Positions 838-20,163 of a stretch of DNA of 24,348 bases are shown here, in pieces. Below the pieces are notes generated by a model. That model saw only the letters and a program-made list of their open reading frames with translations, did not search any database and was not told the DNA's origin. The translations under genes were made by a program, and so were the position numbers. Position 1 is the stretch's first letter; the number at the start of each line of letters is the position of its first letter. Source of the DNA: a virus; the IMG/VR virus record IMGVR_UViG_3300004774_000016, positions 1 through 24,348 of that record; one strand, written 5' to 3'.

Positions 838-1266
838 TCAGTCAAACCCGCGCATTGGGCGTATCGGCTTCCGTTCCTTCGCGGCCTTCTTCCTGCCCCT
901 GAATGGGCGCCTGGGTCCTTTGCGCTCCAAGGTGTAGGCAATCCCCAGCGCCATGCTTGCAGCCCATTTAGCGGCTACCAGGGCGAACGGGTCAAGCCCC
1001 TGCCCCAACCACCACGGCAATTCCTCCCCGGCATCGTGGAGCGATCCTGGGTATCCTGGGCCATGATGCCAGCCGCACAGGCCGGCGGCGTTGTTATCCC
1101 CGGCCTTCAATCCTCGGGCTTTAGGTTCGGGACCGCACGTCAGGTGGTGAGCGAACACAGGGCGCCGAAAGCAACCGGGGATGCAGCAATTCCCTTCCCC
1201 CAACCGTCTCAGGTGCCCCGGCGAGCGGATGCGGCCTTCGATAAAGTCGGGGGTAACGTCAGCCAT
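838..1266 (-). CDS. HNH-type phage protein, DUF968/Ref-like
   Basis: The 142-residue product carries the pattern CCIPGC, then AHHL, then LCGWHHG, then a WWLGQGLDP segment. In phage DUF968 proteins and the P1 Ref family this layout forms a Cys/His HNH fold: metal-binding Cys pair, catalytic His pair, second His pair. P1 Ref is a RecA-directed nuclease; activity of this protein is inferred. I chose the ATG at 1266 because it overlaps the stop of the upstream cytosine methyltransferase (ATGGCTGA); an ATG at 1299 also exists. The C-terminus is Lys/Arg rich (RGRKKAAKERK), fitting nucleic-acid binding. It is the last well-supported gene of the leftward operon. Confidence 0.75.
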   Translation of the reverse strand: MADVTPDFIEGRIRSPGHLRRLGEGNCCIPGCFRRPVFAHHLTCGPEPKARGLKAGDNNAAGLCGWHHGPGYPGSLHDAGEELPWWLGQGLDPFALVAAKWAASMALGIAYTLERKGPRRPFRGRKKAAKERKPIRPMRGFD

Positions 1267-2056
1267 GATCGCGCTCATAGGCCATGACAGCACGGCCAAG
1301 TATCTCGGGAATTTGGGGAACTACGGCGTTTCCAATGGCGGCAAGTCTGTGTGGCCAATCGGGAACCCCATCAACCATTCTGGTAGGATCGGGTTGATCC
1401 AACCATTGATAAGATAAGGCAGGCACCGTCGATCCCATTTCATGTCGAATCCGATCACTGCGCCGGATGGTCTTGTCTCGCCATTTTCGCGCCGGCTCAT
1501 TGTCAGCATTGAGAATGGGGTGAACCCGTTTCCTTTGTTTGGGGTAGGCCACCACCCACAATCGGTCTCGTATGTGTGGAGCGCCGATAGAGGAAGCTGG
1601 TATGCAATGCCATTCCGCATCATACCCGAGCGCGGAAAGGTCTCCGAGAACTCGGCCAATTCCCCGTCCAAGCAAAGCTGCGACGTTCTCCACGAACACG
1701 TATCGCGGTCGTATTTCGCCAATAAGGCGCGCGTATTCTGACCAGAGACCGGAGCGTTCGCCTTCGATCCCGGCGCGCAATCCTGCGTTGGAAATATCCT
1801 GACATGGGAACCCGCCGCAAATGGCGTCAACGGTAATTCCATCGGCAGCAAGTCTTGCGGCGGTGAGCGTCCTGATATCGTCATAACACGGAACCTCGGA
1901 CCAATGTTTCGCCAGCACGCGGCGCGGGAACGGTTCAATTTCACAGAACGCGACGGTTTTGAAGCCAAGAGACCTTTCGAGGCCAAGTGAAAACCCGCCG
2001 ATGCCGGAGAACAAGTCCAACAGGTTGAAACGGGCGTCACCCACTGGCAAGAGCAT
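1259..2056 (-). CDS. DNA (cytosine-5) methyltransferase, Dcm type
   Basis: The enzyme transfers a methyl group from S-adenosylmethionine to C5 of cytosine in duplex DNA. With the ATG at 2056 as residue 1 it has 265 residues. Visible motifs, in order: I, LDLFSGIGGFSLGLE (residues 13-27); IV, GGFPCQDIS with the catalytic Cys near 85; VI, FVENV near 123; VIII, IRDRLWVVAYP; X, GNAVVPQIPEILG near the C-terminus. The target-recognition region is short, typical of small phage enzymes. No restriction endonuclease gene lies beside it, so it is probably a solitary protective methyltransferase. Start choice is uncertain: GTG at 2044 is also possible and the frame is open to 2125, but residues before the 2056 Met do not look conserved. 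Confidence 0.93.
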   Translation of the reverse strand: MLLPVGDARFNLLDLFSGIGGFSLGLERSLGFKTVAFCEIEPFPRRVLAKHWSEVPCYDDIRTLTAARLAADGITVDAICGGFPCQDISNAGLRAGIEGERSGLWSEYARLIGEIRPRYVFVENVAALLGRGIGRVLGDLSALGYDAEWHCIPASSIGAPHIRDRLWVVAYPKQRKRVHPILNADNEPARKWRDKTIRRSDRIRHEMGSTVPALSYQWLDQPDPTRMVDGVPDWPHRLAAIGNAVVPQIPEILGRAVMAYERDHG

Positions 2057-2246
2057 CCCGACCGGCCCGCGTGATCGCGTAAGCCACTCCATCCCCACCC
2101 AGCCGGTATGCCCAACCCTTTGCAACCAGACGCGCGCCCATTGGTCCTCCGACTTTCACCCCGCCGAGAAATTCGCCGAGGTCGGACGGGACAAAATACG
2201 GGTGCTTTGCCAGCGCCGTGAGGGCCTTACGCTGCGGTTCGGTCAT
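2037..2246 (-). CDS. Small winged-helix-like protein
   Basis: The 69-residue product starts MTEPQRKALTALAKHPYFVP and ends AYAITRAGRDALASG. A helical N-terminal half followed by a Gly-rich turn and the ITRAGRDAL ending resembles a winged-helix DNA-binding fold, in which the ending would be the wing strand and last helix. The ATG at 2246 overlaps the TGA of the upstream gene (ATGA) and is preferred over an ATG at 2261. The gene sits between the two methyltransferase genes and overlaps the start of the cytosine methyltransferase by about 20 nt. A regulatory role is inference. Confidence 0.6.
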   Translation of the reverse strand: MTEPQRKALTALAKHPYFVPSDLGEFLGGVKVGGPMGARLVAKGWAYRLGGDGVAYAITRAGRDALASG

Positions 2247-2422
2247 CGCGGCCATTCCCATACGTGCCCAAACCCGAGCCTATCCAGGACCGCTCCCGCA
2301 GCCCTGTATCCCGCTGCCCGATCATCCGGGTTCCACACTACCCGACCGGCCGCAGTGGCGCTGATGTCGGCCGCTGCGGTGCCGATGGCGTTTGCGTGGA
2401 GCAATGCGGTATGGAGGGTCAA
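2243..2422 (-). CDS. Small hypothetical protein, probable TTG start
   Basis: The frame contains LHTALLHANAIGTAAADISA followed by AAGRVVWNPDDRAAGYRAAG and ends FGHVWEWPR. A TTG at 2422 overlaps the stop of the helicase-methyltransferase gene (TTGA), giving 59 residues. The frame stays open upstream to a Met at 2527, but that extension covers the end of the methyltransferase and is probably a shadow. The gene ends with an ATGA overlap to the next gene, which supports translation of this frame. No family recognised. Confidence 0.5.
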   Translation of the reverse strand: MTLHTALLHANAIGTAAADISATAAGRVVWNPDDRAAGYRAAGAVLDRLGFGHVWEWPR

Positions 2423-5007
2423 TCCGCCGCGTCCAAAAGATCGAACAGCGATGGGGTTGCCGCTTCTGCCTCGGCCGCTTGGCAGTATCGCATCGCGTCG
2501 CGCCAGTATGCCCCGGACAGTTCGCACCCATACCCGACGCGGCCGAGTTTCAACGCGCGAAGCGGAACGGTCCCGATGCCGCCGAACGGGTCAAATACTG
2601 TTTCACCCTTCATGGAAAACTGGATTATCAGCCGGTCGGCGATATCGTATTGCATCGGGCAAAGGTGGAACTCCTGCCCCTTGCGCTCTTGTTCCATGTT
2701 CAATGTCCGCATCCGCGCAACGTCGCTCCAAACGTCGGGGTGGACGGAGTGCGGCGGGAATAGCATGAACGTAGCGGGCAGGCGTTGCATTTCGTCCAGA
2801 GCCTCGCACACGGCGCGGTGTTCGGAATAGTCATAGACCCCGCCGGGAGCCGTGATCCGGGCTTCCCACCATTTATACATCGCTTCATGGGGCATATTGG
2901 CAAGTTCCGCAGTGGATAACAGCCTATCGCCATTGGACCGGGTGTATCCGTGGGCGTCAAGCTGCCACACAGCGCGGCTGTATCCCGTTCCAGGAACCGG
3001 GTGTTTCCAATTGTCTTTCTTATCAAAGGCCCGGACAACCCCTTCATTATCGGTGCAATCCGGCTTCTCCTTCACGATGGGATTATCCGCATAACCAACG
3101 CTCAGGTCTGTCGGTGGCTTGCGGAACATCAAGATATACTCGGGGGTTCCGCATCCCATGCGCGAACCATCCTTGCATTGTTCCGACCAGCCTAGGCGAT
3201 ACGTTTGATTGTTTTCCCTCACAACGTCGGTAGTGACAGTCTTCATTCCAAGGAAAGCAAAACCGTGCCGTTGATAGTGATATATCGCCTCGGCATGGAA
3301 CGGGTGGAGGGTCTGGAAACCCAGGCCGTTGATACCGCCGGGCACGATCCGGTCTTTAACGTGTATCATCGCGTTCCGGCCGGGCTTGAGCATACGCAGC
3401 AACGATGGCGTGAGGAAATCCATCTGTTTCCAGAAGTGGTCATTATCGTCGGTATGCCCAAAATCGTTATAGAGCGGCGTGTATTCATATTGCGTCGCGA
3501 ACGGGATGCTGGTCACAATCAGATCTACGCTATTGTCTGGCGCAGCGGCGCATTCCAGCACGCTATCGTTGTTCACGACACTCCAACCGATGCCGCGCGC
3601 CTCTTGCCGTTCGACGTTCATGCCCCGGTGTAGGGCTTGCGCGAAGGCTATATCGGCAAGGCCAAACTCTCGCACTAGGGCGCACATCCGCTGGACCATT
3701 TCAGTATGGCGCTTCCATTTCGCTTCAAGCGACCGCCGAACCTCCCGCTCTGCCTCAGTATAAATCAGGTCGATACGCACCGTCTTGCTTTGCCCAAATC
3801 GCTGCAACCGATGCACGGATTGGATAAAGTCATGGAACTTGAACCCGATGCCGAGGAAAATGGACCATGCACAGAACCGTTGCAGGTTTGTCCCCGCGCC
3901 GATCAGAACGGGCTTACCGGCAATTTCCTGATATTCGCCATCGCTAAAGCCGATGATAGCGGCTTCGCGTTCAACCAACGGTTGGGCACCGTAAACCGTC
4001 GTTATGCCCGGTATAGCAACCTCAATCGCGCGGCGCTCATCCTCCAAATCGTGCCAGATAATCCGATGGGCGCAGGGGTCCAGCGCGCGCAATTCCATCA
4101 TCTTTTCCATGCGTTGGACAAGGGAAGATCGCTTCTCGCCAGCGGTTTCCGACACGCCGAATGATGCATTGCGGAACATTCGGCCTTGTCCGTCGCGCTC
4201 TTGGCCGGCCTTGGTATGATCGGTCGCGACCTCATGCCAATGGACTTCAAGTTCTGGCATGACATAGCCGTCATCGGGGAAACCAAGGTCGGACGGCAGG
4301 AGCATGAAAATTGCCCATGATGACACCCACAACCAGAACTCACGCTCCTTGTGCGCGTGCAGCGTCAGCTTGTCGGCGTTGGAACTGTCCCGCTTGAAAA
4401 ACCGGGTTTTCGCTTCCCCAACGTCCATAACGCCAAGGAATGCAGCATAGGCCAGCAGCTCAATGTATTCGTTCGGAGAAGGTGTCGCGGTCGCCACAAA
4501 ACGGTATTTCGTCCCCTCGAACGTATTCATCAGCGCGCGGAAGGTTTTCGTTCCTCCGAACCCACGGAGCCGAGCGGCTTCGTCAAGGCAGACGCTTTCG
4601 AAAAGCGTCATATCCAGCTTTTCGTCCCGCGCCGTTTCGTAATTGGTGACGTAGACGCCGGGGCCGGCAACCTCATCCGTGCGTCGGATAAAGGTTACAC
4701 TCATGCCCATCTTTTCCGCGTCGCGGCGGAACTCCTGACGCACGCCGAGGGGCGCAATAATCAGCGTGGGTTTGCCGCTGGTCTGCGATATGATGCGCGA
4801 TATTTCCAACTGCATGGATGTTTTGTGCAGGCCGAACGATGCGAAGATCGCGGCCCGGCCCTTGCGTAGCGCCCATTCCACCATCGCGGCGGCGTGAGGC
4901 TTTAACCATGGGCAGATTGTCGCATTCGGAACCTCAAAGCCAAGGTTCTGTCCAAACGACACTTTGTCATTCAGAAACTTTTGATATTCAGTTAGGTTGA
5001 TTGTCAT
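2419..5007 (-). CDS. Snf2-type SF2 helicase fused to an N6-adenine-type DNA methyltransferase
   Basis: This large leftward gene (862 residues from the ATG at 5007) joins two enzymes. The N-terminal half (about 20-430) is a Snf2-like ATPase. It has a Walker A-like FGLHKTS near 60 (His where Gly is usual), a DEAA box in CLDEAARLR, a TATPSPN motif III and the motif VI pattern HRLQRFGQ. The C-terminal half (about 480-855) is a DNA methyltransferase with motif IV written TSIPF instead of DPPY, followed much later by the cofactor motif FDPFGGIGTVPL. That order (IV before I) is the beta-class N6/N4 arrangement. The ATG overlaps the stop of the preceding small gene. A GTG two codons upstream is possible. 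The role is probably protective modification of phage DNA, perhaps with ATP-driven DNA tracking. The target sequence is unknown. Confidence 0.88.
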   Translation of the reverse strand: MTINLTEYQKFLNDKVSFGQNLGFEVPNATICPWLKPHAAAMVEWALRKGRAAIFASFGLHKTSMQLEISRIISQTSGKPTLIIAPLGVRQEFRRDAEKMGMSVTFIRRTDEVAGPGVYVTNYETARDEKLDMTLFESVCLDEAARLRGFGGTKTFRALMNTFEGTKYRFVATATPSPNEYIELLAYAAFLGVMDVGEAKTRFFKRDSSNADKLTLHAHKEREFWLWVSSWAIFMLLPSDLGFPDDGYVMPELEVHWHEVATDHTKAGQERDGQGRMFRNASFGVSETAGEKRSSLVQRMEKMMELRALDPCAHRIIWHDLEDERRAIEVAIPGITTVYGAQPLVEREAAIIGFSDGEYQEIAGKPVLIGAGTNLQRFCAWSIFLGIGFKFHDFIQSVHRLQRFGQSKTVRIDLIYTEAEREVRRSLEAKWKRHTEMVQRMCALVREFGLADIAFAQALHRGMNVERQEARGIGWSVVNNDSVLECAAAPDNSVDLIVTSIPFATQYEYTPLYNDFGHTDDNDHFWKQMDFLTPSLLRMLKPGRNAMIHVKDRIVPGGINGLGFQTLHPFHAEAIYHYQRHGFAFLGMKTVTTDVVRENNQTYRLGWSEQCKDGSRMGCGTPEYILMFRKPPTDLSVGYADNPIVKEKPDCTDNEGVVRAFDKKDNWKHPVPGTGYSRAVWQLDAHGYTRSNGDRLLSTAELANMPHEAMYKWWEARITAPGGVYDYSEHRAVCEALDEMQRLPATFMLFPPHSVHPDVWSDVARMRTLNMEQERKGQEFHLCPMQYDIADRLIIQFSMKGETVFDPFGGIGTVPLRALKLGRVGYGCELSGAYWRDAMRYCQAAEAEAATPSLFDLLDAAD

Positions 5008-5200
5008 TCCCACGTTCCCCTCAAAATTGCCTCATGCAACGCCGCGATTTCTACCGGCCCATTAGCCTCCGATGGGTGGGTGATAAACTCGGCTGCCCAA
5101 TCTTCCATTTGCTGGTCATCGGCGCTGATTGCCCAGCGATATTCCAGGCGCCATTGGGTTCCACGACGATGGCAAAGCGGGCTTTGACGGTGTTGCTCAT
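5004..5200 (-). pseudogene. Small phage gene split by a one-base frameshift
   Basis: An ATG at 5200 overlaps the antirepressor stop (ATGA) and starts MSNTVKARFAIVVEPNGAW, then this frame degenerates to a stop at 5051. From the same spot another frame reads EYRWAISADDQQMEDWAAEF, then an acidic helical tail ending LRGTWE. It stops at 5004-5006, exactly overlapping the ATG of the next gene. The interval is 197 nt, one short of 66 codons, so one missing base near 5144 would rejoin a protein of about 65 residues. Both ends carry the operon's ATGA junctions, which argues that the composite is the ancestral gene. Alternatives are a sequencing indel or recoding (-1). Function unknown. Confidence 0.6.
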
Positions 5201-7167: not shown

Positions 7168-7731
7168 TCATGGCGCGCTCCCCATCGCGAAAACGGATGG
7201 CCGACGTGGCTGATATCCCCCAACTTTCGACGATGGCATAAGGCCGGGGTTCATCGGGATGGCAACGCGGAACGGAGGGATTTCTTGCTCAGCGCGAAAA
7301 GCGTTTACCGCGGCTAAGATCGACCCATCATCCGCATGAATCCCATGCTCGATGGCGTATTGGACAACCTCGGCCTCGGTCACGGGAACCGTGTCAACGT
7401 GCATTGCATCGCGGGCCAGCAACCTCCCCACGGCCGAGAGTATCCTGTCCGTTGCCGTGCGCCCTGCCGGCGCGTCCGACATGATCAGGAGTTCCGGCGG
7501 AGTATGCTTCAGATCCGCACGGGGGCGCCGCAGCCCAAAGGAATGCACGACAAAGCCTATGACCCCTTTCTTCGGTAGGCGAGGCCCACCCGCTGCCGTC
7601 AGCCGCTCTATGATGCCGTCATCCCCCTCCCATGGATGGTCGGCTGGGTAGTCCCGTCGCAGGATTTCCAGCCGGGCATGGGTCAGCCATTTGGAGCGGC
7701 CGACAAGGGAGGTAGGGGATGGTTCGGTCAT
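7168..7731 (-). CDS. Hypothetical protein with a Myb/GcrA-like N-terminal HTH
   Basis: The 187-residue protein has an N-terminal section with WLTHARLEILRRDYPAD, then IIERLTAAGG and KKGVIGFVVHSFGLRRPR. This Trp-start, helix, gap and VIG...LGLRR pattern resembles the helix-turn-helix of GcrA/Myb-like phage proteins, where the last helix reads the DNA. The rest (70-187) has no motif I recognise. The ATG overlaps the primase-helicase stop (ATGA), so it is translated from the same replication transcript. A DNA-binding role in early expression or replication is inference. Confidence 0.6.
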   Translation of the reverse strand: MTEPSPTSLVGRSKWLTHARLEILRRDYPADHPWEGDDGIIERLTAAGGPRLPKKGVIGFVVHSFGLRRPRADLKHTPPELLIMSDAPAGRTATDRILSAVGRLLARDAMHVDTVPVTEAEVVQYAIEHGIHADDGSILAAVNAFRAEQEIPPFRVAIPMNPGLMPSSKVGGYQPRRPSVFAMGSAP

Positions 7732-10475
7732 TGGGGTTCATTCCATGTTTTGCCAGATGGCGGGAAATTATCGGATGGGGCAGAATACCGACCGATAACG
7801 GGGTCATAGTTCATGATCGTGTTTTGCGGGTGTTGCCCCCAGCGGCGATGCCGGGATTTCCAAAGGTGGAATTCCGATACGCCAAGATCGGGACGATAAA
7901 TCGTAACGCCCATATCAGCTTTGTTATACCAATGGGCACTTCCGCTAATTGCGTAGGCTGTTGGCACTGCTGGCGCTTCCCCATTCTTAAGAGCTGGTTT
8001 TGCAGGATGGGCAATAATCCAGATATTGCACGCATGACGCAACGTGAATGCGCGGCACCGTTGAAGAAATCGACCGATATATTCTGTCTCGGTTATGCCG
8101 GTCGGGCGGCTGTTGTCCATTTCGTTTACGGGGTCAATGAGAAGGTCCGTTATCCCGTCGCGCAGCACCGCAGCGCGGGCGCGTTCGAAAATCCAATCAG
8201 CAGTCGGGGTCTGATCCTCCGCATCGCATACGATCATCGTAAGGCGCGGTCCGAACCATTCCTCGGCCTGCGCGGCTTCCTCATCGCTCATGGTCGGATA
8301 ACCCGGCTCGGGATAAAACGGATGCCCGGTCAATGGTTCCGCGCACGATACAACGAATTGCTGCCAGGGTTCCATTTCGGGGGAAAACACAGCCCATCGG
8401 CGTGCGTAGTTCTTCATTCCGTGTATCATGACAAACCGGACAAAAGCGGTTTTTCCGCTGCCTGGGTAGCCCGTGGTGACGATAACGGCACCTTCCAATG
8501 GGAACCGAACACCGATTTCGTCAACGGATGATACGCCCGTCGTCATAACGCCCGGCCTGGGGCGCCTGCGTAGCTCCCTGAGCGTGCCCGGCACGACCCG
8601 CTGCAATCCCTCAATCGGGTAGGGCTGGGCCGCCCTAACGCATTGCATCACGGTTTCCGGGCCATGCAACCGAAGCACGTCGCCAGCGTCCTTGCAGCCT
8701 TCGGGCCATTCCACGGTATGGCAGCGGTGGCGCCCCAGGCGGCGTGCAAGTTCCTCCCGCAACACCATGCCGGGTTCGTCGTTATCGCCGGCCAGGACGA
8801 TCCTGCGGGCTTTTGTGAGCATGTCTGAGTGGGTGCGTAGCGCCTCGAAACGCTTATCGGTTGGGGAGGGGTTGTCGGACAGTTTCGCGGGTGCGCCGTC
8901 TTTGAGCGATACCGCGTTCGGTATCAGGCACTCGAACATCGCCATCACATCGCAGTTACCAGATACCGTGACGGTGTTCTTTTGGCGAACCAACATCGCT
9001 CCCGATGGCACGGATAGACAAAAAACAGGACCGTCATAGGGCACGTCAGACCGGGACAAGAATTGAGTTCCCGTATGTTTTTTGCCATGTAGGAGCGAGA
9101 CTTTCAGCCATTCTCCCAAATCGTTGGAACGGGGTATAATGGTGCTGCAAAACCCAGATGTATGGGCCAGCGCCTGCACCCAAGATGCCAATTCGGGGAA
9201 TCGGCTGGAAAATTCAGTCTGATTACGGTTGGGGACGGAGTTCCCATCCCAATGGCGCAGTTCTTCAACGATTAACGCTCGCTGGCACGCCGTAGCATCG
9301 CTAATCCAAGACCACGGTAGAAAGCGTCCTGGTATCCAATCTGGCATGGCCAAGCACATACTTTGCTCTCCACTCGCCACGATGGCGTCAGAAAATTCCA
9401 ACCCGCATTCAGACAATAATTCTCTCAGTCTGTGTATTTTCCTTGGCTTTGTGAAGGCAAACCGCGCGTAGCGACGTTCCTTCGCCTTGTGTTTCCCTGT
9501 GTTTTTCCGTTCGTCAATTGCGGCATCCGCTGAAATCGCGATTGATAGCCTGATTTGAGCATCGGTCAATAATATACCAGCGCCGTCGCAAACCCCGGCG
9601 CGTGGTATCGAATACCGGCTATCGGGTTTCATGGAGCCGGCCTCAATAGCCGATATCCCGTGCCCCCTGCGCTGAATTATCAGCCGATGTTTTGGTGTGG
9701 TGGATGAGATAAATCCGCGCCCAGCCCATTGAACAAGATCGCCGTTATGTTCGCGTTGAATATATGCAATTGGCTTCACAAACTCAACGCGATGATCCTG
9801 CCATTGTGCCACTATGTCGGCTGGATTTATCGTGGCGATGTCAACCCACCCGCGTTGGGTTAGAACCTCGGTTCCGGGCGGAAAGCATTCCCCTTCCACC
9901 CAAACAATCTCGTCAGGGTCATCGCCCAATCGATCTACATTGTAGAGTGTTTGCAAGGCGTTCTTGTCTTGCATCATCGGATTTTTAGCGGGATGCGGCC
10001 TGTATTTACGATTTGATAATTCACCTTTGAACACGTAGGGAAAAACGATTGCATTCGAGGTTCCGACCGGATTGGGGAACCATCGAGTCGTCGCGTAAAC
10101 ACCAAATTGCTTGATCGTGTGCATCCCGATCTTGCGCTCGGTCCAAAAATCCCAGAACCATTGCGGGCGGTTTTCCGTCTCGGTTTGGGGTGCTGGCGTC
10201 GGCTTCACGATGGGGCGTTCCCGCACTATCGGGCGCTCATAGGTTCGGTCGGAGGATGGCACGCGGGCACCGCCTTTCCAGCCGCACGATCCCCGGTGAC
10301 AGACCCAGACGGCGCCCATAGCGTCCTGGTCGATCGTCACGGTGCAAGATAGTTCCCTGCTTCGGCCCCCTTCGCACTTTGGGCAAGTGACCTGCGATGA
10401 TGCCCCAGCGTGTTGCGATTTTGGCTTGAGCCGCGCGTCGGCCAGGATGTCGGACAGGCTGCGAACGTCGGCCAT
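7728..10475 (-). CDS. Bifunctional DNA primase-helicase (T7 gp4/Twinkle-like) interrupted by an intein
   Basis: The 915-residue precursor would give a 604-residue enzyme after splicing. Residues 31-64 are a zinc-binding primase domain (CPKC, then VCHRGSC). Residues about 185-196 and 508-600 form a TOPRIM domain: the catalytic Glu motif VEGE is directly followed by the intein, and the downstream metal motif is LAGDND (562-567). Residues 640-890 are a RecA-like replicative helicase with Walker A GYPGSGKT (669-676) and Walker B LLIDPVNEMD (778-787). It would synthesise primers and unwind the fork for the phage replisome. The ATG overlaps the DUF1376 gene stop (TGATG) and the stop overlaps the next gene. 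Confidence 0.92.
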   Translation of the reverse strand: MADVRSLSDILADARLKPKSQHAGASSQVTCPKCEGGRSRELSCTVTIDQDAMGAVWVCHRGSCGWKGGARVPSSDRTYERPIVRERPIVKPTPAPQTETENRPQWFWDFWTERKIGMHTIKQFGVYATTRWFPNPVGTSNAIVFPYVFKGELSNRKYRPHPAKNPMMQDKNALQTLYNVDRLGDDPDEIVWVEGECFPPGTEVLTQRGWVDIATINPADIVAQWQDHRVEFVKPIAYIQREHNGDLVQWAGRGFISSTTPKHRLIIQRRGHGISAIEAGSMKPDSRYSIPRAGVCDGAGILLTDAQIRLSIAISADAAIDERKNTGKHKAKERRYARFAFTKPRKIHRLRELLSECGLEFSDAIVASGEQSMCLAMPDWIPGRFLPWSWISDATACQRALIVEELRHWDGNSVPNRNQTEFSSRFPELASWVQALAHTSGFCSTIIPRSNDLGEWLKVSLLHGKKHTGTQFLSRSDVPYDGPVFCLSVPSGAMLVRQKNTVTVSGNCDVMAMFECLIPNAVSLKDGAPAKLSDNPSPTDKRFEALRTHSDMLTKARRIVLAGDNDEPGMVLREELARRLGRHRCHTVEWPEGCKDAGDVLRLHGPETVMQCVRAAQPYPIEGLQRVVPGTLRELRRRPRPGVMTTGVSSVDEIGVRFPLEGAVIVTTGYPGSGKTAFVRFVMIHGMKNYARRWAVFSPEMEPWQQFVVSCAEPLTGHPFYPEPGYPTMSDEEAAQAEEWFGPRLTMIVCDAEDQTPTADWIFERARAAVLRDGITDLLIDPVNEMDNSRPTGITETEYIGRFLQRCRAFTLRHACNIWIIAHPAKPALKNGEAPAVPTAYAISGSAHWYNKADMGVTIYRPDLGVSEFHLWKSRHRRWGQHPQNTIMNYDPVIGRYSAPSDNFPPSGKTWNEPQ
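8955..9887 (-). mobile_element. Intein in the primase TOPRIM motif, with LAGLIDADG-like endonuclease domain
   Basis: The 311-residue element runs from Cys197 to Asn507 of the precursor, with Cys508 as the +1 residue. Block A is CFPPGTEVLTQRGW; block B is TTPKHRLII with the TxxH signature. Block F/G reads VFCLSVPSGAMLV and ends VTVSGN. Between them, about residues 300-470, LSIAISADAAID and LIVEELRHWDGN look like the two LAGLIDADG helices of a homing endonuclease, each keeping an acidic residue. FTKPRKIHRLRELL and LPWSW...ACQRALI segments are typical spacers. The penultimate residue is Gly, not His. It splits VEGE from CD, so unspliced primase should be inactive. Confidence 0.88.
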
Positions 10476-13372: not shown

Positions 13373-13716
13373 CCCCCGCCACCTTCCGCGCCCGCCTCAA
13401 GGCCATGCGTCTCCCGCTTGGGGAGTTCGCTGCCATAACCGGCGTCACCCCTGCCACCGTATCCCGTTGGGGCGGCGCGATCCCGACGTTTCCCGGCTGG
13501 GTGGATCGACTTTTGGCCGAGTGGGAGAGGAACGGGTTGCCGCAGATGCCGGTGCCGCCGATGCCGGTGCCGCCGATGGGCACGCTTCGCCGCGTCTACA
13601 CCGATATCCAGCAGCGGGCGATTGACCGGCTGGAAGCGCGGTTAATCGAGGCATTTGAGCGCATTGTGGCGCTGGAAGCCGAAACGGAACGGAATGGCAT
13701 GGGGTATCGGGGATGA
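13369..13716 (+). CDS. HTH-domain regulator, 115 aa, with a Pro-rich linker
   Basis: From the ATG at 13369 (AGAGGAAACT upstream, ATGA overlap with the previous gene) the product has an XRE-like HTH: RLPLGEFAAITGVTPATVSR followed by Trp-Gly. A MPVPPMPVPPM linker, made by two identical 15-bp repeats, joins it to a helical, Glu/Arg-rich C-terminal segment (DRLEARLIEAFERIVALEAE) likely to be a coiled-coil dimerisation helix. Its stop overlaps the GcrA-like gene. A transcriptional regulator acting with GcrA is plausible. An upstream in-frame ATG at 13333 is less likely because it lacks a ribosome binding site. Confidence 0.75.
   Translation: MTPATFRARLKAMRLPLGEFAAITGVTPATVSRWGGAIPTFPGWVDRLLAEWERNGLPQMPVPPMPVPPMGTLRRVYTDIQQRAIDRLEARLIEAFERIVALEAETERNGMGYRG
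13546..13575 (+). repeat. Tandem 15-bp coding repeat
   Basis: ATGCCGGTGCCGCCG occurs twice head to tail and encodes MPVPP twice in the linker of the HTH protein. The copies are identical, so copy number can change by slippage without breaking the frame. Confidence 0.85.
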
Positions 13717-14255
13717 ACAACAGCTACGATTGGAACGACGCGGCGATACAGCGGCTACGGGACCTGTGGGCAGAGGGTCATCCAACGGCTGAGATTGGGC
13801 GGCGAATGAATGTCTCGAAAAACGCCATTATCGGGAAAGCCCACCGCCTCGACCTGCCCATGCGGCCGAACCCGGTGCGGAAACTGAGCAGCGAGGGGCC
13901 GCGCAGGAATGTCCCGCCTGTCAGGTTACGCAAGAGCACTCTACCGCCGCTGCCTGAGCCTGTGGCGTTCATCCCCCCGGCCAAACCACACATTGACGCG
14001 CCTATGCCTGTCCAGCCCGATCCTACGCCAGCCGAGGCGGCTATTGAGGATGCGCATGTTATGCTGTTTGCGCCAGTGGCAGCCAGAGCCGGGCAGAGGG
14101 GGTGCTTATTCCCGATTGGACCGCGTCGCCCGATGGGTGGGTTTTTGGAATGCGGGGATGTGCGGGCAATCAGCGCGCGGACAGGGGGCGCCATGCCATA
14201 CTGCGATGCTCACGCGGGGGTCTGCTACACCACGTATCGGAGTGCGGCAGCATGA
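13713..14255 (+). CDS. GcrA-family cell-cycle regulator (phage-encoded)
   Basis: GcrA is an alphaproteobacterial factor that binds sigma-70 holoenzyme and promoters with methylated GANTC sites, activating cell-cycle genes. This 180-residue protein keeps both conserved parts. The N-terminal HTH (about 5-48) reads YDWNDAAIQRLRDLWAEG, then TAEIGRRMNVSKNAIIGKAH and RLDLP. The C-terminal part (about 130-175) has GCLFPIGPRRP, ECG and MPYCDAHAGVCY, matching the family's C-P-I-G...C...PYC.xH ending. A Pro-rich linker joins them, as in host GcrA. The phage copy probably redirects host RNA polymerase or tunes transcription to DNA methylation state. It ends the rightward regulatory operon. Confidence 0.88.
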   Translation: MNNSYDWNDAAIQRLRDLWAEGHPTAEIGRRMNVSKNAIIGKAHRLDLPMRPNPVRKLSSEGPRRNVPPVRLRKSTLPPLPEPVAFIPPAKPHIDAPMPVQPDPTPAEAAIEDAHVMLFAPVAARAGQRGCLFPIGPRRPMGGFLECGDVRAISARTGGAMPYCDAHAGVCYTTYRSAAA

Positions 14256-16976: not shown

Positions 16977-17355
16977 CACTGACGTGGAATTGATCCCTCA
17001 ACCGCACGGCGGCGCTTTGAGGCCGTTTCCGCCTCGCGCGGCGCAACTGTCCGGATCGTCATGGAAGAAGGCCAAGAAAGAGGCGTTGAACGCTCTACGC
17101 GACATGACGGGCGACGGCGTGGAGAAATTGCAGGCCCTCACAAACTCCCCCGACGATCGCGTCGCCATGGTCGCGGTGAAAGAGGTCCTGGACCGCACGT
17201 TGGGGAAACCCACGGACATGCCGCAGGGCGAGGATGACGGGCACGGGATGGTTGATCTATCAGCGTTGACGCCAGGGGAGCGGGCGGAACTGAGCGGGGC
17301 GCTGGCGACGATCAAGAGACTGACGGGACGCGGGCCGGGGGCTTTGACGATATGA
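16969..17355 (+). CDS. Probable terminase small subunit
   Basis: The 128-residue protein has helical segments typical of small terminases: SSWKKAKKEALNALRDMTGD, then a region with SPDDRVAMVAVKEVLDRTLGKP, a common C-terminal module in tailed-phage TerS proteins. In this role it recognises phage DNA and recruits the large subunit to cut and package it. It starts with GGGGTGG upstream and its stop overlaps the large terminase start (ATGA). Position directly before the large subunit supports the call; sequence alone would be weaker. Confidence 0.75.
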   Translation: MTDTDVELIPQPHGGALRPFPPRAAQLSGSSWKKAKKEALNALRDMTGDGVEKLQALTNSPDDRVAMVAVKEVLDRTLGKPTDMPQGEDDGHGMVDLSALTPGERAELSGALATIKRLTGRGPGALTI

Positions 17356-19853
17356 CGGACACAGGGCTTCTCGACCTGGAGGACCTGGACGACGTTGACG
17401 CCGGTTTGACGCGCGCGGATTTTGGCCGGTTTTGTGAGCGGGTTATTGGGGATCGCGGCTATGCCATCCAGCCGCACCAATGGTTGCTAATCCGAGAATT
17501 GGAGGCTGTTGCGCGGGGCGAAACCAAGCGGCTCATGGTTTTCATGCCCCCAGGGGCGGCGAAATCGACCTATGCGAGCGAGCTATTCCCCGCGTGGTTT
17601 CTCGCGACGCAACCCCGTCAATGCGTTGTCGGTGCGGCTCATACGAATGATTTTGCCGAGACTTTCTCGAAAAAGGTCATGGCCGTTGCGCGAGAATACT
17701 GCGGAGAGATAGGCTATTATCTTTCGTCTGAAAATATGAAGTCATGGACAACGACAAACGGCGGAGAATACAAAGCTGTCGGTATAGGCAGCAACATTAC
17801 CGGAAGGCGCGGGGACCTAGTTTTGATAGATGACCCCGTTCGGTCATATGAGGACGCGCAGAGCGAGACATACCGCGCCATCGCGTGGAATTGGTATCTC
17901 GCGGACGTGCGAACCCGTGCCAAACCCGGTATGCGCGTGGTTGTAATCATGACCCGCTGGCACGAAAACGATCTAGCGGGCCGGCTGTTGGAGGCTCAGG
18001 CGCATGACTGGCGCGTGGTGCGGCTCCCCGCCATGGCCGAGGACAACGACGCGCTCGGGCGCAAACCCGGGGAAATGCTTTGGGGGGACGATCCCAAATG
18101 GCCATGGGCGGAGGAGGCGCGCGCGATCAAGTCGGAGTTTGACCGATCCGGGGCTAGCCGCACATGGTCAGCGCTTTATCAACAAAACCCGGTGCCCGAC
18201 ACAGGGAGCTATTTCCTGCGCCAGTGGCTGGTGCCGGTGCCATCCCTGCCGCCGGTCTCTGCGCTCAAAATTTATGGCGCATCGGACTACGCGGTGACGG
18301 CAGCCGGTGGCGATTATACCGTGCATGTGGTTGTGGGGATGGATGCGGATGGCAGGTTGTGGATTTTGGACCTATGGCGCGAGCAAACCACGGCCGACGA
18401 ATGGGTGGAGGCGTTCTGTGCCCTCGTGAAGCGCTGGAAGCCGCTGGCATGGGCGGAGGAAGGCGGGCAGATCAAGGCGTCTGTTGGGCCATTCCTGACG
18501 CGCACGATGCGGGAGCGCCGTGCTTATGTGCATCGGGTGGATTTTCCGACGCGCGGCGACAAGGCGATCCGGGCGCAGTCTATTCGTGGACGAATGGCCG
18601 TCGATGGGATACGCTATCTCGCGACTGCGGAATGGCGCGGATCGTTTGAGCGCGAGATATTAAGTTTCCCCGTCGGAAAACATGATGACCAATGTTTGAT
18701 CGAGGGCACGCTGATCACGATGGCTGACGGGTCGCGCAAGCCGATTGAGGCTGTCCGCATTGGTGACGTGGTGGCGACGCATGAAGGCCCGTGCGATGTC
18801 GAAGCGTGCGGCGTGACCGATGAAGCGGCCGATGTAATGCAGGTTGCGTTCTCGGATGGCTCAGTGCTGACAGGAACGCCTAATCATCCGGTCCATGTTG
18901 TTGGAAGGGGCTTTGTTTCGTTGGGTTCGTTGGGTATAATGGACCAGATAACAACGGATCATGGTCAATGCGACGCGGCACGTCAAAGGCGGATGTGGTG
19001 GAATATCGGGGGCATCGGTATCGGAGATACCCTGAAAGCAAACACGTTCACCATGCCCGGTATTACACGGGTTCGGAACCAAGGCGTGGTTTCCTTCATC
19101 GGCATATATGGGAAGATGCGAACGGCGCTATCCCGCCGAAACATGATATCCACCACAAGGACGGGAACACTCTCAACAACGACCTATCAAACCTTGAATG
19201 TGTCCAAGAAGGGGATCACAAACGCATTCATCTCCGCCCCTTTGACGAAGCCATGGGCGAACATCTCGCTTCGATCCGCCCCATGGCGGGGGCTTGGCAT
19301 TCTAGCCCAGAGGGGTTGGCTTGGCATAAGCAACATGGTGCGGCGAGTTGGGACAACCGCGCAGCTATTTTTCACAAGGTCTGCGCTTCTTGCGGTGCCG
19401 GGTTCGATGCCTTTTTTGAACGGGCCATGTTTTGCAGCGGCGGGTGCAAGCAGCGGGGCATCGGTGGCGGAGCATCCAAGCGCGGGCGATTTGTGGCGGA
19501 AGGTGAAGCGGTCCTTTGCCGGTGTTGCGCGCGCTTGTTCACCACAAAATGGCCTGAGATCGCTGCTTATTGCTCAAAAGCCTGCGGTATGCGTTATCGA
19601 GAAAAGGGCGCTTTCGGAGAAGGCGAGGGTCCTAAATCTCACCGTAAGCCGCGCGCACGCCTTTTATGCGAACGGGGTGTTGACGCATAATTGCGACGCT
19701 CTTGGCCTAGTTGGCCAGTTGCTTGACCGCATGGAAAAGCCGGTGGCGCCGAAGCCCGTTGAACCGATCCGGGGCACGATGGAGATGACGATGTCTGAGG
19801 CGTGGAAGCTGGCGAACCCGAGGACGCTCGGCGGGAAGAGGGTGCGGATATGA
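17352..19853 (+). CDS. terL: Terminase large subunit interrupted by an intein
   Basis: TerL is the ATP-driven motor and nuclease that packages DNA into the prohead. The precursor has 833 residues; removal of the 333-residue intein leaves 500, normal for the family. The ATPase has Walker A MPPGAAKST (65-73) and Walker B LVLIDDP (156-162). The RNase H-like nuclease has ASD (310-312), an acidic EE pair at 369-370 and the HDDQ motif (444-447), which the intein splits from the following CDALG. The third acidic cluster is rebuilt only after splicing. The intein encodes a second protein in another frame (separate entry). Its stop overlaps the next small gene. Confidence 0.94.
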   Translation: MTDTGLLDLEDLDDVDAGLTRADFGRFCERVIGDRGYAIQPHQWLLIRELEAVARGETKRLMVFMPPGAAKSTYASELFPAWFLATQPRQCVVGAAHTNDFAETFSKKVMAVAREYCGEIGYYLSSENMKSWTTTNGGEYKAVGIGSNITGRRGDLVLIDDPVRSYEDAQSETYRAIAWNWYLADVRTRAKPGMRVVVIMTRWHENDLAGRLLEAQAHDWRVVRLPAMAEDNDALGRKPGEMLWGDDPKWPWAEEARAIKSEFDRSGASRTWSALYQQNPVPDTGSYFLRQWLVPVPSLPPVSALKIYGASDYAVTAAGGDYTVHVVVGMDADGRLWILDLWREQTTADEWVEAFCALVKRWKPLAWAEEGGQIKASVGPFLTRTMRERRAYVHRVDFPTRGDKAIRAQSIRGRMAVDGIRYLATAEWRGSFEREILSFPVGKHDDQCLIEGTLITMADGSRKPIEAVRIGDVVATHEGPCDVEACGVTDEAADVMQVAFSDGSVLTGTPNHPVHVVGRGFVSLGSLGIMDQITTDHGQCDAARQRRMWWNIGGIGIGDTLKANTFTMPGITRVRNQGVVSFIGIYGKMRTALSRRNMISTTRTGTLSTTTYQTLNVSKKGITNAFISAPLTKPWANISLRSAPWRGLGILAQRGWLGISNMVRRVGTTAQLFFTRSALLAVPGSMPFLNGPCFAAAGASSGASVAEHPSAGDLWRKVKRSFAGVARACSPQNGLRSLLIAQKPAVCVIEKRALSEKARVLNLTVSRAHAFYANGVLTHNCDALGLVGQLLDRMEKPVAPKPVEPIRGTMEMTMSEAWKLANPRTLGGKRVRI
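18693..19691 (+). mobile_element. TerL intein carrying an out-of-frame HNH gene
   Basis: The intein runs from Cys448 to Asn780 of the precursor, with Cys781 as the +1 residue. Block A is CLIEGTLITMADGSRKPIEA, block B is LTGTPNHPVHV (TxxH), and the C-terminal blocks read ARVLNLTVSRAHAFYANGV and LTHN, with the penultimate His present. All splicing residues look intact. The N-terminal splicing domain ends about residue 535 and the C-terminal domain starts about 735. The roughly 200 codons between them have no recognisable motif in this frame: they are the translation of an HNH gene in another frame. No in-frame endonuclease is seen. Confidence 0.9.
18968..19690 (+). CDS. HNH homing endonuclease overprinted inside the TerL intein
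   Basis: The 240-residue protein is read in a different frame from the intein. Its first part is a classical phage HNH (HNH_3-type) domain: a YRGHRYRRYPES strand pair, LHRHIWEDANGAIP at 43-56, catalytic DIHHKDGNTLNND at 60-72, then LSNLECV and DHKRIHL. Two zinc-finger-like motifs follow, CASC...FCSGGC (Cys139, 142, 156, 160) and CRCC...YCSKAC (Cys184, 187, 202, 206). They show that this frame stays under coding constraint to near its end. It stops one base before the intein ends. No strong ribosome binding site precedes the ATG, and the frame is open back only to 18884. It probably cuts intein-less terL alleles, spreading the element. Confidence 0.88.
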   Translation: MRRGTSKADVVEYRGHRYRRYPESKHVHHARYYTGSEPRRGFLHRHIWEDANGAIPPKHDIHHKDGNTLNNDLSNLECVQEGDHKRIHLRPFDEAMGEHLASIRPMAGAWHSSPEGLAWHKQHGAASWDNRAAIFHKVCASCGAGFDAFFERAMFCSGGCKQRGIGGGASKRGRFVAEGEAVLCRCCARLFTTKWPEIAAYCSKACGMRYREKGAFGEGEGPKSHRKPRARLLCERGVDA

Positions 19854-19959
19854 TGGGCGGGTTTCCGAGGCCCCTGCCAATCACGCCGCCGCCGTCGCTG
19901 ATGAGGAAGCCGCACGCGCTGAAATGTGGGGGATGACCCCGCTTACACCAAACGAATAG
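19850..19959 (+). pseudogene. Small gene after terL, possibly frameshifted
   Basis: An ATG overlapping the terL stop reads MMGGFPRPLPITPPPSLMRK and stops at 19934-19936 (28 residues). From the CCG-repeat onward another frame reads AVADEEAARAEMWGMTPLTP and stops at 19957-19959. A Pro-rich start followed by an acidic helix is a common design for small head-operon proteins. The interval of 110 nt is one base short of a whole codon number, so a single-base loss could have split a protein of about 36 residues. The 28-residue version may also be the true gene. Confidence 0.4.
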
Positions 19960-20163
19960 GGGAGCTGATAATCTCGCAGATTGCCTGCCGCTCACTCTAG
20001 CGCGAACCTAACGCCTCACCTCCCTATCGCAGCCGCGCCCCTTGGTTTTTAGCGCGCGCGAATGGGCAAACCTCGTCAGCCGCCGGGTAACCGGTCATTT
20101 TGTGGGGTAAGGTGAGGAAAGCGGCACACAATACGGCAGTGACACTGTCCTATCTCATGTGTT
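19960..20163. other. Gap between terL and portal
   Basis: About 200 bp without a credible reading frame. It has an AGGGGAG...CCTCCCT-like pairing over 19958-20023 that at first resembles a tRNA acceptor stem, but no T-arm or anticodon arm fits. No strong promoter or ribosome binding site before the portal start was found. Confidence 0.4.

Follow-up and report, generated by a model that had tools for sequence, protein, structure and literature searches.

The terL locus and its insert

The window (here, the whole stretch of 24,348 nucleotides of the viral record IMGVR_UViG_3300004774_000016) harbors a gene for the large terminase subunit, terL, whose single reading frame (17352-19853, plus strand, as for all the features of this locus) runs without a stop through an inserted segment. 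Most of the RNase H-like nuclease domain lies, together with the ATPase, in the N-extein (17352-18692), which matches Pfam Terminase_6N (E=7.6e-12) and the PHROG_38 terminase large subunit (E=2.4e-94); TerL resumes, in the C-extein (19692-19853), exactly at HDDQ|CDALGLVGQLLD. The translation of the TerL frame delimits an intein of 333 aa in between (18693-19691), from Cys1 (C18693) to Asn333 (HN19691|C), with Cys as the +1 residue. Splicing blocks A and B, the latter with T62-x-x-H65, are embedded in the N-terminal Hint part (18693-18968), and blocks F and G, ending in HN|C, in the C-terminal one (19575-19691). C1, T62, H65 and N333 are invariant in the alignment, and the insert is matched by Hint_2 (E=2e-5) and, within TerL, by the intein C-terminal model (intein_Cterm, TIGR01443; E=6.7e-5), so that the sequence features expected of a Hint intein are present. 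No stop separates the N- and C-intein, as it would in a split intein. The insertion point adjoins a conserved Asp of the nuclease domain (a domain recognised by PHROG and Pfam matches), which we take to be catalytic in terminases.

Within the intein lies a second gene, running in the -1 frame relative to terL from the ATG at 18968 to the TAA at 19688-19690 (18968-19690, 240 aa). Its product matches HNH_3 (PF13392, E=1.7e-14) and the PHROG_15471 HNH family (E=5e-26). The catalytic core (L43-H88, 19094-19231) embeds H62, H63, N70, N71, N75, H84 and H88, all invariant or nearly so in the alignments, and is followed by two zinc-ribbon-like CxxC...CxxxC motifs, the first (C139, C142, C156, C160; 19382-19447) invariant and the second (C184, C187, C202, C206; 19517-19585) nearly invariant. 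The HNH domain does not share the frame of the splicing blocks, as the in-frame endonuclease of an intein would. The first-pass annotation had proposed these coordinates and frames, the four splicing blocks in an open TerL frame, the HNH_3-like domain and the two cysteine motifs; all of them were confirmed, the intein frame matching Hint and intein models and the other one HNH_3 and PHROG_15471. The invariant codons of the catalytic His-Asn pair of the intein (CAT AAT) provide the HNH gene with its TAA stop, and in three other loci (L003, L005 and L006) the HNH stop likewise falls 1 nt before the intein end.

Elsewhere in the window, a Toprim/DnaB-like primase-helicase gene (7728-10475, minus strand) contains another intein-like insert, which begins with CFPPGTEVLTQRGW and ends with TVTVSGN|C, and in which Pfam recognised no endonuclease domain. 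The phage also codes for a GcrA-like cell-cycle regulator (13713-14252, plus strand; PF07750, E 7.7e-17), which suggests an alphaproteobacterial host, and for a SNF2-like helicase fused to an N6/N4 DNA methylase (2422-5013, minus strand), adjoined by a C5 methylase (1262-2125, minus strand).

The structures of the two products were modelled with AlphaFold2 from alignments of the window and contigs, leaving out the rows of named phages. The model of the intein frame consists of two confident Hint parts, residues 1-92 and 295-333 (pLDDT mostly >90; 89-96 over residues 1-90 and >90 in the C-terminal part), separated by a disordered middle of about 200 residues. This middle (residues 93-294, 18969-19574; pLDDT <50) is the out-of-frame image of the HNH gene. 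The best PDB matches of the model are the Mtu RecA, gp41-1 and DnaB inteins, which points to a Hint fold. The predicted HNH protein is confident except for its first few and its last 16 residues, the latter lying over the code of the C-terminal Hint part. Its only plausible solved relative is I-HmuI (profile E 6e-4; Z 7.2 over 72 residues, a similarity that is modest alone); Foldseek returned no match at E<0.001 for the model and ranked I-HmuI first. Taken together, the PF13392 match, the invariant H/N residues and the Z score of 7.2 with I-HmuI are those of an HNH endonuclease in both motif and predicted fold.

The pattern of substitutions changes frame at the start of the HNH gene, in codon-position divergence as well as in omega. 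In the region of the N-terminal Hint part, variation is highest at the third positions of the intein frame, whose omega is 0.1-0.4; from the HNH start on, it is highest at the third positions of the HNH frame, with omega 0.09-0.19 wherever computable, the exception being the nearly identical pair formed by the window and L003 (0.44). Over the HNH gene the intein frame (residues 93-294) shows an omega of 1.1 to 3.1, that is, no protein-level constraint. Only in the final block, which encodes the C-terminal Hint part, is the HNH third-position divergence about halved (0.275), and only there are both frames constrained; real double constraint appears to be confined to roughly the last 100 nt. The comparison of dN/dS in the two frames, which the first-pass annotation had suggested, thus finds the HNH frame constrained in the middle and the intein frame at its ends. 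Since residues 93-294 combine an omega above 1 with predicted disorder, the overlap is mostly linker and not dual-constrained sequence. The earlier idea of more than 700 dual-coding bases can be retained in the sense that both frames appear to be translated, but not in the sense that both proteins are constrained along that length.

Empty sites, recurrence and stop codons

An intein-free counterpart of the locus was found on a viral contig (L164), whose TerL nuclease segment is 97% identical in protein and 87% in DNA (95.7% in DNA to the right of the insertion site). It reads ...GACCAA|TGCGACGC..., that is, exactly the two flanks of the 999-bp intein, with the whole 999 bp absent. The TerL of Microcystis phage Mwe-JY13 reads HDDQVDALGL at the same place, with no insert. 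At both sites, removing the insert restores the host protein, as expected of an intein. When TerL nuclease segments are compared, the 80 nearest include two with the insert, both of them known relatives of the window, and 78 without it. A comparison of Highwayman with BP10 as an empty-site pair was dropped in favor of L164, the two TerLs being only 27% identical.

At L164 (2912-2981) the +1 residue is a Cys, whereas intein-free TerLs otherwise have a Val there in nearly every case. Because of this residue, precise loss of an intein rather than gain is possible at L164, and the Cys might be either the footprint of that loss or the mark of a pre-adapted site. The identity close to the insert is often above that of the ATPase part of TerL; between L004 and L007 it amounts to 38% in the ATPase, 81% in the nuclease and 93% in the N-terminal Hint part. 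The raised identity would fit transfer with co-conversion, although the swapping of TerL domains could give the same pattern.

The search with the HNH protein retrieved loci at 57-100% identity, all showing the same one-base offset from an open TerL/intein frame except the distant L010, in which the HNH protein (31% identical) is freestanding. The locus set was then built from profile scans of viral and genome contigs, followed by custom Hint N and C models; the relatives were picked by similarity to the HNH of the window and are not fully independent. In at least 87 deduplicated loci (69 clusters at 60% identity) the Hint frame is open across an HNH gene lying in another frame, which is the -1 frame in 83 and the other alternative frame in four (L074, L099, L100, L108). 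They stem from dozens of phages of diverse kinds and, in a few cases, from contigs of bacteria and archaea. Nearly all lie in TerL, the host gene being a terminase by Pfam wherever it could be called, and nearly all have intein-type C-terminal junctions, the junction being unresolved in three. In all 82 loci whose intein boundaries are both resolved, the HNH ORF stops within the intein, 1-85 nt before the intein end, and the median distance from Cys1 to its ATG is 91 codons.

The layout is also present inside the annotated terL of three named phages, Tetrasphaera phage TJE1, Acinetobacter phage Highwayman and Rhodobacteraceae phage LS06-2018-MD07, in all of which the HNH gene is unannotated. 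A sequencing or assembly error, or compensating indels, can be dismissed, as L003, from another metagenome, differs across the element by substitutions only and keeps both frames, and as named phage genomes carry the same layout. No close homologue has its HNH in frame with the splicing blocks, and the intein frame is free of stops in all close relatives; an in-frame HNH, or many such stops, would have counted against an overprinted gene according to the first-pass annotation. In four loci (L066, L103, L117, L128) an apparent other intein, with LAGLIDADG and/or Intein_splicing Pfam matches, lies upstream of the overprinted one.

Whether an open intein frame is more than chance was assessed by shuffling synonymous codons within each HNH gene; this null model is conservative, since the HNH protein and its codon usage are retained. 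For the window alone a stop-free intein frame arises in 22% of the shuffles (p about 0.22), and its own open frame is not significant by itself; the significance therefore comes from the relatives. Of 99 intein-associated HNH loci, 86 have no stop in the intein frame, against 13.3 expected from the shuffles, and the remaining 13 have 3 to 16 stops each, none having one or two. In most of these 13 a separate C-intein ORF follows, and most of them look like split inteins with the HNH gene between the halves. In the 41 embedded loci of low GC, 110 stops would be expected; since an open frame is what defines the embedded set, a fair test has to take the whole set (86/99) and not the absence of stops in the 86.

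Probable translation of the HNH gene and alternative readings

These data agree with the proposal of the first-pass annotation, an out-of-frame HNH gene within a mini-intein kept free of stops; the 87 loci and the freestanding controls, the empty site, the selection patterns and the structure models all lend it support. The reading that we consider very probable, on the basis of sequence comparisons and predicted structures, is that of a mini-intein in TerL with a homing endonuclease that is overprinted, and translated on its own, rather than fused to it; along most of the HNH gene, the intein frame would then need nothing more than to be free of stop codons. Ribosomes reading terL would cross both Hint halves and the unstructured image, about 200 residues long, of the HNH gene; the Hint halves would then come together in one fold and cut out the intein, joining the two parts of TerL again within the nuclease domain, as the intact blocks and the exact empty site suggest. 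Other ribosomes would start inside the intein, in the -1 frame, at an ATG about 91 codons after Cys1, and yield a separate I-HmuI-like HNH endonuclease with zinc ribbons, a step to which the conserved start and the Shine-Dalgarno sequences across the loci point. This enzyme would act on intein-less terL, cleaving it where the intein inserts, and the repair of the cut would copy in the whole element, as might be expected from the family of the enzyme and, indirectly, from the patchy presence of the insert and the empty sites. We infer protein splicing, HNH expression, cleavage of intein-less terL and homing alike from these comparisons.

As for the start, 65 of 72 loci have an ATG located 30-48 codons upstream of the HNH core, whereas that frame of the N-extein would predict 11.2. 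A Shine-Dalgarno sequence of at least 4 bases precedes 44 of 68 such ATGs and 61 of 297 control ATGs (p=5e-12), and one of at least 5 bases precedes 26/68 and 15/297, respectively. The evidence is weaker in the window, where the ATG at 18968 has only a 3-nt GGA as Shine-Dalgarno and where translation might instead start from a GTG at 18995 with AAGG.

The first-pass annotation had also considered that -1 recoding might join the N-extein and the N-terminal Hint part to the HNH domain, so that the endonuclease would be a fusion. Such programmed frameshifting might account for the -1 position of the HNH gene in 83 of 87 loci, and in the window the HNH frame is open over the 84 nt that precede the ATG. 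Yet 23 of 68 loci have an HNH-frame stop at most 9 nt before the ATG, which leaves almost no room for a frameshift, and four loci use the other frame. Freestanding HNH homologues have 3.3 stops per 100 codons in the -1 offset and 10.6 in the other; the predominance of -1 may thus be explained by the fewer stops that need removal in that offset, and is to be expected without any recoding. Since the ATG has a fixed place and its Shine-Dalgarno sequences are enriched, internal initiation fits better, and the fusion is disfavored to the point of being very unlikely.

It is equally hard to believe that the HNH gene is inactive, a degraded or recently inserted sequence that is merely tolerated, as the weak Shine-Dalgarno at the start codon of the window might suggest: the omega of its frame is 0.09-0.19 in most pairs, its catalytic and zinc residues are invariant and its starts are conserved. 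A role in DNA packaging together with the terminase, instead of homing, would have a precedent in the HNH proteins for packaging encoded next to phage terminases (cited in PMC12613952), and homologues of the present gene also stand free beside terL. We consider such a role very improbable, given the I-HmuI-like combination of HNH_3 and zinc ribbons, the constant containment of the HNH gene in the intein and the patchy presence of the insert, absent from 78 of the 80 nearest TerL loci. Enzymes of the HNH_3 or I-HmuI type are characteristic of group I introns in phages, and I-HmuI is the closest solved structure to the HNH protein; that the insert is removed as RNA, a self-splicing intron with an HNH ORF and incidental intein-like blocks, is nonetheless scarcely credible in view of the conserved open frame, the Cys1, TxxH and HN|C blocks, the confidently predicted Hint fold and a search of Rfam that found no match at E<=1 over 18400-20150.

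Known systems, possible origin and meaning

Inteins are usually described as having an in-frame endonuclease domain, as lacking one, or as split. The TerL intein shares with the canonical large inteins a Hint fold and an endonuclease at a comparable place between its halves; in those inteins the endonuclease belongs to the same polypeptide, whereas in the window it is a separate gene in another frame. An example of the canonical kind is L149, where a ribonucleotide-reductase-like gene of Thermosipho harbors an intein with its HNH in frame. The endonuclease domains of inteins reportedly all occupy one conserved site of the Hint domain (PMC6801210), and the HNH of the window is also placed between the Hint halves, but in a different frame. 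In split inteins of fractured genes the endonuclease is likewise translated separately between the N- and C-intein; there, stops separate the halves, which would splice in trans, whereas the single ORF of the window would splice in cis. The HNH core fold is shared with I-HmuI and other HNH_3 phage homing endonucleases, with the difference that I-HmuI is encoded in a group I intron and the HNH of the window inside an intein and with two C-terminal CxxC...CxxxC modules.

The closest precedent is the ShiLan domain, an out-of-frame HNH insert in the DNA methylases of actinobacteriophages, in which no splicing domain was detected and which is thought to remain in the protein (Arsenault, Gosselin and Gogarten 2025; PMC11855218). 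The two elements have in common a zinc-finger HNH in the third frame, a stop-free host frame, a patchy distribution and an end made of an Asn codon with an overlapping TAA stop (mostly TAAC in ShiLan; PMC11855218). The window likewise has its HNH in an alternative frame of an uninterrupted host ORF, but differs from ShiLan in having all the splicing blocks and a predicted Hint fold, and in its host gene. In the literature covered, our search for out-of-frame endonucleases in inteins retrieved the ShiLan work and one genome note only. The element appears to be an intein by every sequence and fold test, with an endonuclease of a known kind; the combination of a splicing intein with an overprinted endonuclease did not turn up in the literature searched. 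The first-pass annotation knew of no described intein of this layout, which in that literature holds for the combination but not for out-of-frame HNH inserts as such. A 2025 preprint by Gosselin et al., 'Actinobacteriophage Inteins ... Non-Canonical Architecture', may deal with related layouts, to judge from its title and from its being cited for overlapping frames, and may anticipate part of the finding.

A single HNH family includes genes freestanding beside terL, genes overprinted in either frame and genes placed between the halves of split inteins. In a quick tree of 115 HNH proteins, with many weakly supported branches, it takes 18 changes to account for these architectures (overprinted in -1 or in the other frame, split, freestanding), whereas shuffled labels require 33.9. 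The layout is apparently inherited, yet has changed several times; the tree gives no direction of change. In nine loci (L084, L094, L109, L113, L118, L119, L121, L124, L125) an HNH gene of this family lies between the N- and C-intein ORFs of a split TerL intein, and these look like fractured terminase genes. HNH homologues stand directly beside terS/terL in five intein-free phages (L014, L017, L018, L020, L021), and such genes are candidates for the ancestral terL-targeting endonuclease. We propose, tentatively and as a possibility rather than a probability, that the overprinted HNH inteins represent a third widespread architecture bridging the in-frame and the split ones: a freestanding terL-targeting HNH gene would have landed out of frame in a TerL mini-intein, and stops arising later in the unconstrained linker would have split the intein, leaving the endonuclease gene freestanding between its halves.

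The overprinted layout is a recurrent and largely unrecognised way to build a mobile intein, whose HNH genes are missed by annotation. Mobility and splicing would be encoded in two frames of one DNA and their products translated separately, and the loci form a large natural collection of gene overlaps in which freedom from stops is all that is kept in one of the frames. The layout also provides split inteins with a concrete path of origin and suggests how an out-of-frame insert might be tolerated in an essential gene, a question that the ShiLan domain raises: the host frame would be spliced.
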